This document shows positions 10,667 to 13,305 of a stretch of DNA of 64,000 nt, one piece after another. Source of the stretch: Sulfobacillus thermotolerans. Its GTDB lineage: Bacteria; Bacillota; Sulfobacillia; Sulfobacillales; Sulfobacillaceae. Each line of letters starts with the position of its first letter. The first letter of the stretch is position 1. The notes under the pieces are model-generated. The model was not told where the DNA came from. It saw only the letters and a list, made by a program, of their open reading frames with translations, and searched no databases. A program made the position numbers and the translations under genes. The stretch is from positions 186,001-250,000 of the forward strand of contig CP019454.1 of the NCBI GenBank assembly GCA_002951815.1, written 5' to 3'.

Positions 10667-12121
10667 ATGGTTAGGGTACGATATGCGCCGAGTCCAACCG
10701 GCACCTTGCACATTGGGGGGGCCAGAACGGCGCTATTTAATTATTTATTTGCGCGCCATCATCATGGGCGCTTTATTTTGCGTGTCGAGGATACCGACCA
10801 GGCACGACTTGTGGAAGGCTCAGAAGAGAGCATGATGCGGGGACTGAAAAGTTTGGGCTTGGTTTGGGATGAAGGGCCCGATGTGGGCGGAGACTATGGA
10901 CCTTATCACCAGTCCGAGCGCTTGGCGCGCCACAAGGCGGCGTTACAGCAACTTCTCGATGCCGGCCAGGCTTATCGTTGTTATTGCACCCCGGAAGAAT
11001 TAGCCGAAGAGCGAGCACGGCAAGAAGCCCTCAAACAGCCGCCACGCTATAGCGGCAAGTGCCGCATGCGTCCGCAAGATGATCCCATTCATACGTCGGG
11101 AAAGCCGTTTGTGGTGCGGATGAAAGTCCCGGAAGAGGGGACGACCGTGGTGCAAGATTTGATTCGGGGACCGGTGACCTTTGAAAATCGGATTTTAGGA
11201 GATTTCGTCCTTGCGAAATCCGATGGCACACCCGTCTACAATTTTGCGGTGGTACTCGACGATTATGATATGGCCATCACCCACGTGATTCGGGGCGAGG
11301 AGCATCTCTCCAACACGCCCAAACAAATCTTAGTCTATCAGGCGCTAAACTTGGACCTTCCTGCCTTCGCGCATGTTCCCATGATTTTAGCTCCCGATCA
11401 TACAAAATTGTCCAAACGGCATGGCGCGACTTCTGTTGAGGAGTACCGGCAGCAGGGTATTCTACCTGAAGCATTGACGAACTATCTCTTGCTCTTGGGA
11501 TGGTCTGCTCCAGACGATACCGAAATCATGACCCTTGAGCAAGCGGCGCAGTGGTTTGACTTGGACCGAGTACAACATACGGCTGCAATTTATGACATTA
11601 AGAAGCTAGAGTGGATGAACAGCCAATACCTCCGGTTGCTGCCGGTGGACCGGATAAAAGAGGCGGTGACGCCCTTCCTGGCGGCAGAAGGTATTGTCCC
11701 GGAATCAGGGCCGGACCTGGATACCGTTATCGCCTTGGTGCGCGAACGGGCCCGGACGTTGGTGGAGTTGGCGCAAGGGATGGCTTATTTTTATGTGCGG
11801 CCCCAAACATTCGAGGCCAAAGGTGTTCAAAAGCATTTTGACGCCACCACCCCCGAGCGGTTGCGAGCGCTAGCGGAAGTCTTAAGCCAACTGTCGACAT
11901 GGGACCATGACAGCCTGATGGCGGCGTATGATGCGGAAGCGGCTCGTTTAGAGGTCAAACGGGCGGCGTTGATTCACCCTTCCCGATTGGCGGTGACAGG
12001 CCGCACGGTGGGTCCGGGCTTATTTGAACTGCTGGAGGTCTTAGGGCAAAAAGAGACCGTGGACCGTCTCTTGGAGACGGCCACGGCCATTGAGAATGGG
12101 CATATTACGCCAACACCTTGA
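10667..12121 (+). CDS. gltX: Glutamyl-tRNA synthetase
   Basis: This 484-residue class I synthetase has the HIGH-type signature SPTGTLHIGGARTAL at residues 9-23 and the KMSKS-type HTKLSKRHGA near 245, with the GluRS-specific GEEHLSNTPKQ before it. It charges tRNA-Glu, and in organisms lacking GlnRS also tRNA-Gln for later amidation. The start has an ideal AGGAGGGG. Its last 17 bp overlap the 3' end of the convergent selD gene. Confidence 0.97.
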   Translation: MVRVRYAPSPTGTLHIGGARTALFNYLFARHHHGRFILRVEDTDQARLVEGSEESMMRGLKSLGLVWDEGPDVGGDYGPYHQSERLARHKAALQQLLDAGQAYRCYCTPEELAEERARQEALKQPPRYSGKCRMRPQDDPIHTSGKPFVVRMKVPEEGTTVVQDLIRGPVTFENRILGDFVLAKSDGTPVYNFAVVLDDYDMAITHVIRGEEHLSNTPKQILVYQALNLDLPAFAHVPMILAPDHTKLSKRHGATSVEEYRQQGILPEALTNYLLLLGWSAPDDTEIMTLEQAAQWFDLDRVQHTAAIYDIKKLEWMNSQYLRLLPVDRIKEAVTPFLAAEGIVPESGPDLDTVIALVRERARTLVELAQGMAYFYVRPQTFEAKGVQKHFDATTPERLRALAEVLSQLSTWDHDSLMAAYDAEAARLEVKRAALIHPSRLAVTGRTVGPGLFELLEVLGQKETVDRLLETATAIENGHITPTP

Positions 12122-13148
12122 CCTTGGCAGGACCGGGGGTCACGTACCCAATGCGGTAAACCGCAATCTTGGCTTGCTCGAACGCGGCCTCTAAGGAGGC
12201 GGCGTTCTCTTTTTTGACCGTAAACAGCAAACCACCTGAGGTAACCGCGTCAGCTAGCAACGTCAACAACTGGAGATCTATCGCCGGATCCGCATCAAGA
12301 TGCGGGCTCACGTACTCTAGATTGCGACGGCTGCCCGACGGAAACCGCCCGAGTTGCGCGAGTTCCTTGGCGCCTGGTAACGTGGGAACACGCGAGGCCT
12401 CAAGGACGATGCTAACGCCTGCACCTTGGGCCATTTCCCAACTATGCCCTAGTAGACCAAATCCCGTAACGTCCGTACAAGCGGTGGGATCTCCCACTTG
12501 TTTAATGGCATCGCGTGCGGCGCGGTTCAAGGTTGTCATCATGGTGACCACGCTGTTCGTCCATTCGGGACGCGCTTCTCCATCTTTGACAGCTTTGATG
12601 ACCACGCCACTCCCAATCGGTTTGGACAGATACAACAAGTCGCCGACTTGCGCCGTGCTGTTGCGCCATATGTGATCGGGGTGGACAAGGCCTGTGACGG
12701 CATATCCCATTTTCGGCTCGTTGTCATCGATGGAGTGTCCACCAAGTAAATGGCAGGACGCTTCATCTAAAATCGACTGACCGCCTTGCAGCATGGCTCC
12801 GACTTCTTCGGGTGACAACACGCCTTCTGGCACCGCTAGAAGATTCAATGCGGTCACGGGAATGCCTCCCATGGCATACACGTCAGATAATGAGTTGGCG
12901 GCCGCGACTTTGCCAAATAGTTCAGGATCGTCGACAACAGGTGTCAAAAAGTCCACGGTTTGCACAAGGGCTTGATCTGGCGTGAGGCGGTAAACGCCCG
13001 CGTCATCGTGGGTTTCGTTGCCCACTAAGACATCAGAATCCGCATGAAGGCGGGGTGGCACAAAGCTTAGTGCCTTCGTTAGGTCCTCCGGACCTAACTT
13101 GCACCCTCATCCCGATTTGCTGGTCATCTGTGTTAAGCGCGGGTGCAT
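12105..13148 (-). CDS. selD: Selenide, water dikinase, itself a selenoprotein (in-frame UGA at codon 14)
   Basis: SelD makes selenophosphate from selenide and ATP. The conventional ORF begins only at 13061 (MPPRLHADSD) and lacks the catalytic N-terminus. Reading upstream in the same frame gives an ATG at 13148 with GGAGGTGAGG four bases before it, then 13 codons, a TGA at 13107-13109, then GCKLGPEDLTKAL and straight into the ORF. SelD active sites read Cys or Sec followed by GCK, so the TGA falls exactly on the catalytic residue. Downstream, HDDAGVY, VDFLTPVVDDP and DVTGFGLLGH match SelD. Total length 347 codons including UGA is normal. A SECIS-like hairpin follows the UGA. No selA, selB or tRNA-Sec is in the window. 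Confidence 0.9.
13070..13109 (-). promoter_or_regulatory. Bacterial SECIS element with the selD UGA codon
   Basis: Reading on the minus strand, the UGA is followed after nine bases by GTTAGGTCC-GGA-GGACCTAAC, a perfect 9-bp stem (13098-13078). A lower stem GTGC/GCAC is separated from it by small internal loops. Position and size, and the AGGUC at the top of the stem, fit bacterial SECIS elements recognised by SelB, such as the one in fdhF. Being inside the coding region, it is translated as KLGPEDLT. Confidence 0.8.
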
Positions 13149-13166
13149 ATCCTCACCTCCTGGATC

Positions 13167-13209
13167 CTCCAGAAAGCCTGGCGGAAAATTTTCCATGATG
13201 ATTCTGGAG
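13167..13209 (-). promoter_or_regulatory. Inverted repeats in the selD leader
   Basis: CTCCAGAA (13167-13174) and TTCTGGAG (13202-13209) form a perfect 8-bp stem enclosing the self-complementary GGAAAATTTTCC (13183-13194). It lies about 20-60 bp before the selD start on the minus strand and could be a leader RNA structure or protein-binding site. No riboswitch family was recognised. Confidence 0.4.
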
Positions 13210-13276
13210 ACAACGAGGCCTCCAGTATTCTGTATCATAGCACAGTCATAAGGGCAAAGAGTTTGAGCGATGGATT

Positions 13277-13305
13277 AAACCCCCCGGCTGTTATCCGGAG
13301 GGTTT
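13277..13305 (-). terminator. Terminator after the GH18 gene
   Basis: On the minus strand AAACCCTCCGG pairs with CCGGGGGGTTT (10 of 11 positions) around a 7-base loop, 25 bp after the GH18 stop. The T-run is short (TTTAAT), so strength is moderate. It separates the GH18 gene from selD downstream. Confidence 0.6.

Follow-up and report, generated by a model that had tools for sequence, protein, structure and literature searches.

A predicted selenocysteine-type selD gene in Sulfobacillus thermotolerans and its order

The selD gene of Sulfobacillus thermotolerans, coding for selenide, water dikinase, carries an in-frame TGA at its catalytic codon with a hairpin immediately downstream, and we put the probability that it is a Sec-type gene, with UGA 14 decoded as selenocysteine by means of this hairpin, at roughly 97% on the strength of the sequence comparisons described here. 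What the sequences show directly is a conserved gene with a conserved UGA and hairpin, along with every gene of the decoding machinery. This is a well-known kind of gene in a new bacterial group: Sec-type SelD is the rule in the whole order, including the acidophilic Sulfobacillus, and selenocysteine biology as known stays unchanged.

The analysis started from a 64-kb stretch of the genome (hereafter, the window), in which the ORF of selD under translation table 11 runs on the minus strand from a GTG at 13061 to 12105. This standard ORF call shortens the gene by 29 residues and removes the catalytic site from the product. The first-pass annotation had proposed that the true start is the ATG at 13148, 87 bp upstream in the same frame, and the extension indeed corrects the gene: the added segment is open except for exactly one TGA, at codon 14, and a GGAGGTG motif (13160-13154) lies about 7 nt before the ATG. 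The extended N-terminus reads MHPRLTQMTSKSG-U-GCKLGPEDL, and the coordinates of all features are collected in Table 1. The protein matches the SelD models TIGR00476 (362.9 bits, cut-off 125) and NF002098 (323.5 bits, cut-off 299), as well as both Pfam AIRS and AIRS_C. In an alignment with SelD chains of solved structure, residue 14 falls in the column of Cys17 of E. coli SelD and Lys17 in that of Lys20 (U14-G-C-K17 compared with C17-G-C-K20), and residue 14 also aligns with the cysteine of Aquifex SelD. The hallmark of the SelD family, a catalytic Cys/Sec with Gly-x-Lys directly after it in the N-terminal loop, is present, and the TGA thus stands, as had been claimed from the sequence, exactly where SelD proteins have their catalytic Cys or Sec, with GCKL following. 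E. coli SelD (PDB 3u0o) shares the family, the fold family and the catalytic column Cys17/Lys20 with the protein described here, but has Cys in place of Sec, decoded without SelB.

Table 1. Positions in the window of the selD gene and its associated sequence features
Feature	Position	Strand	Basis
selD extended CDS, selenide water dikinase, 347 aa with Sec14 (predicted)	12105..13148	minus	ORF extension; TIGR00476; Pfam AIRS and AIRS_C
GGAGGTG, likely ribosome-binding site of the extended start	13154..13160	minus	sequence; inferred from consensus
In-frame TGA, codon 14, predicted Sec; column of E. coli SelD Cys17	13107..13109	minus	alignment and conservation
SECIS upper hairpin GUUAGGUCC-GGA-GGACCUAAC, 9 bp, 3-nt loop at 13087-13089	13078..13098	minus	folding, comparison with relatives
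Possible lower stem, GGUGC with GCACU, enclosing the upper hairpin	13069..13105	minus	query fold; unconserved in relatives

The mechanical ORF begins at GTG 13061, which could be taken to mean that translation really ends at the TGA and that a shorter SelD, devoid of the N-terminal catalytic loop, is made from that codon. Such a form would be missing two residues that the family keeps, the catalytic Cys/Sec and its neighbouring Lys. The peptides encoded on the two sides of the TGA, LTQMTSKSG upstream and GCKLGP downstream, recur throughout the order and agree with structurally solved SelD proteins of the Cys type. We consider termination at this codon extremely unlikely.

For the comparison across the order, 42 genomes were used, 38 of which contain selD. 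These genes span 3 families and 14 genera, down to approximately 55% protein identity, and every one of them (38/38) contains exactly one in-frame stop, a TGA; the closest named relatives of the query gene are those of Sulfobacillus sp. and S. benefaciens. In all 30 genes that were read base by base, the TGA occupies codon 14, nearly always within SG-U-GCKLGP. This uniformity bears directly on the possibility of a sequencing error, or of a mutated Cys codon (TGT or TGC) peculiar to this genome. Cys-type genes are the commoner kind overall, making up 81% of SelD genes in a prokaryote reference set, compared with 19% for the Sec type (PMC4561486). However, the TGT or TGC codons in relatives that the first-pass annotation had named as the sign of such an error did not appear, all 38 relatives with selD carrying TGA instead, and the TGA is surrounded by synonymous constraint and a hairpin, so that error or private mutation is vanishingly unlikely.

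Synonymous sites around the TGA vary unusually little. The 12-codon windows that cover codons 10-30 have the lowest synonymous diversity of the whole selD gene. At codon 19, 29 of the 30 genes have GGT, and the third position of codon 21 is G in 29/30, even where Glu becomes Ala.

The hairpin downstream of the UGA comprises 9 perfect pairs capped by a GGA loop, as had been predicted for its stem; the distance from the UGA to the stem is 8 nt, rather than the nine bases initially counted, and the distance to the loop is 17 nt. The AGGUC motif, which had been placed at the top of the hairpin, is located in the 5' arm of the stem, and we rejected it as the loop. A published model of bacterial SECIS elements (PMC13188914) specifies a loop of 3-9 nt with a G in the first two positions, a stem of 4-16 bp, a distance of 16-37 nt from the UGA and a minimum free energy (MFE) of -7.5 kcal/mol or lower. 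With 3 nt, GG, 9 bp, 17 nt and -21.3 kcal/mol, respectively, the selD hairpin lies within every one of these limits, although a scan of positions 12900-13300 against Rfam returned chance matches only and no bacterial SECIS family. The proposed lower stem of 4 bp is present in the query fold, where it has 5 pairs, one of them G-U, but its pairs fail in the relatives, and we rejected it as a conserved element.

Taken by itself, the selD hairpin is weak evidence, because 27 of the 2031 TGAs (1.3%) on both strands of the 64-kb window are followed by a similar one, with a stem of 9 bp or more under the same rules; for the same reason, it was rejected as stand-alone proof. The hairpin of the query is nevertheless far stronger than synonymous recoding yields: it folds at -21.3 kcal/mol compared with a mean of -8.7 kcal/mol for the recoded sequences, and none of 300 recodings folds as well. 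Stems in the 30 genes average 7.3 bp, compared with 4.1 bp after synonymous recoding, the mean MFE z-score is -2.1, and one stem pair alternates between C-G (13 genes) and U-A (10 genes). The signal varies among the relatives: for about a third of the 30, the individual hairpin P is near or above 0.1, the loop is AGA in 7/30, and in one relative (L041) the stem has only 4 bp under the simple model. Moreover, the conservation of the hairpin is partly owed to the protein because most of it lies in codons for conserved residues (GPEDL). Judging from these sequence comparisons, it is the conservation, beyond the hairpin alone, that settles that the UGA and the hairpin together exceed chance.

The source genome, a single contig of 3.32 Mb that is 99.6% complete, encodes the complete set of genes required for selenocysteine incorporation. 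We identified selA (543.7 bits, cut-off 268) at 1.98 Mb, selB (353.5 bits, cut-off 242) at 1.07 Mb and selC, the tRNA-Sec with anticodon UCA (65.8 bits, gathering score 47), at 1.82 Mb; together with selD, near 199 kb, all four genes reside at separate loci. The first-pass annotation had deduced a full selenocysteine system from selD and had named the absence of selB and tRNA-Sec as grounds for abandoning the idea; the genome search found both. A second match to the SelB model (189.6 bits, 419-aa frame) was assigned to EF-Tu, rather than to a second SelB, by its size and neighbour. The genome contains no second SelD, only ThiL/AIRS-type paralogues with 25-35% identity, and a search of the genome for selU, the selenouridine gene, showed it to be absent, so the known use of selenophosphate in this organism is selenocysteine.

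The same genome encodes a Sec-like tRNA-Cys whose variable arm is long, and in other organisms some forms of selC* tRNA-Cys carry a UCA anticodon (PMC7609411), which lends some plausibility to the notion that a suppressor or reassigned tRNA decodes the selD UGA as Cys or Trp rather than Sec. However, the Sec-like tRNA-Cys of this genome has a GCA anticodon, which cannot read UGA by normal pairing, whereas a dedicated tRNA-Sec with the UCA anticodon, SelA and SelB are all present. This explanation is very unlikely, and selenocysteine remains the strongly preferred reading of UGA 14.

Elsewhere in the order, selA scored above the cut-off in 36 of the 42 genomes. Two genomes of one genus (G011 and G012, 96-97% complete) contain no selD, no selA passing the cut-off and no tRNA-Sec, and look as though they have lost the whole Sec trait. 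In a further genome (G017), selA is kept and neither selD nor tRNA-Sec was seen, perhaps as a result of a fragmented assembly.

By analogy with the established SelA-SelB-SelC-SelD pathway, we infer the following course of Sec insertion, catalysis and feedback. Translation would start at ATG 13148, and SelB, bound to the mRNA hairpin, would bring Sec-tRNA(UCA) to the UGA at codon 14, placing Sec at the catalytic position in the flexible N-terminal loop (U-G-C-K). The resulting SelD would make selenophosphate from selenide and ATP, and SelA would use it to convert Ser-tRNA-Sec to Sec-tRNA-Sec, which would serve the synthesis of SelD, of formate dehydrogenase and, probably, of one protein resembling peroxiredoxins. 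SelD is thus almost certainly, as far as sequence can tell, a selenoprotein whose synthesis requires its own product, because the selenophosphate it makes would feed SelA, which produces the Sec-tRNA for SelD itself; the lack of a second SelD supports this self-dependence, which had been suggested at the outset. Given that SelD is the only copy and of the Sec type throughout the order, it is conceivable, though improbable, that under selenium shortage the selD UGA may also be read as, for example, Cys or Ser, yielding a low-activity SelD that restarts the loop, with the Sec-like tRNA-Cys of these genomes possibly forming part of such a back-up.

Selenocysteine-dependent SelD is familiar from other bacteria. 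Among bacterial selenoproteins, FdhA is the most widespread and SelD comes second (PMC1794560, PMC13188914), and in prokaryotic SelD the Sec is always found at this one position (PMC4561486). Sec-type SelD is listed for Symbiobacterium and many clostridia (PMC1794560). Compared with the Sec-type SelD (TIGR00476) of Pasteurellales, clostridia and Symbiobacterium, the gene described here belongs to the same family, has Sec at the same position and shows the same arrangement of UGA and downstream hairpin; the host group is the only difference. Within Sulfobacillus, selenocysteine-containing formate dehydrogenases were reported in 2014 for all genomes of the genus (PMC4378227), and a proteomic study of S. 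thermotolerans named a selenocysteine-containing peroxiredoxin (PMC7409299). The surprise implied in the first-pass annotation, of a selenocysteine system in an acidophilic sulfur oxidiser, is not supported: Sec-type SelD is standard (PMC1794560, PMC4561486) and the Sec formate dehydrogenases of Sulfobacillus were already known (PMC4378227). The formate dehydrogenase relies on the same Sec machinery in the same genus, but is a different protein; its gene, which is present here, carries a UGA and hairpin of its own, with a GGUCU loop where selD has GGA. None of the papers within reach of our literature search, which took in a minority of the subscription literature and no supplementary tables, names Sulfobacillus SelD as a selenoprotein.

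Within the source genome, fdhA, encoding the formate dehydrogenase alpha subunit (C1:3189918-3191786, minus strand, 3.19 Mb), has its in-frame UGA where it would be expected, within CNRT-U-HAPS, and the GGUCU-loop hairpin comes 18 nt after this UGA. The loop of the E. coli fdhF hairpin is much like this one. We also noticed a candidate third selenoprotein gene, AhpC/TSA-like, on the minus strand at about 151.1-151.7 kb of C1 (L102, UGA at base 901 of the reverse complement), which encodes FFYEADT-U-SAC, a UxxC motif, with a hairpin GCAACU-GGUCG-AGUUGC whose loop lies 20 nt after the UGA. GGUC is found in the loops of fdhA (GGUCU) and of this peroxiredoxin-like candidate (GGUCG), and not in that of selD.

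A separate observation concerns the Sec-like tRNA-Cys, located about 1.5 kb to the left of the window start (C1:184372-184458, minus strand). It has the anticodon GCA, U73, an encoded CCA, an acceptor stem of 8-9 bp and a long variable arm, and scores 49.7 bits as tRNA-Sec, above the gathering threshold; a normal tRNA-Cys is also present in the source genome. According to ARAGORN, 11 other genomes of the order have a tRNA-Cys with the GCA anticodon at the homologous place, and the tRNA-Sec model detected one more. The tRNA of the source genome resembles selC* tRNA-Cys, descriptions of which have to date come from anaerobes (review PMC7609411); it deserves more attention than the SelD finding and merits a study of its own.
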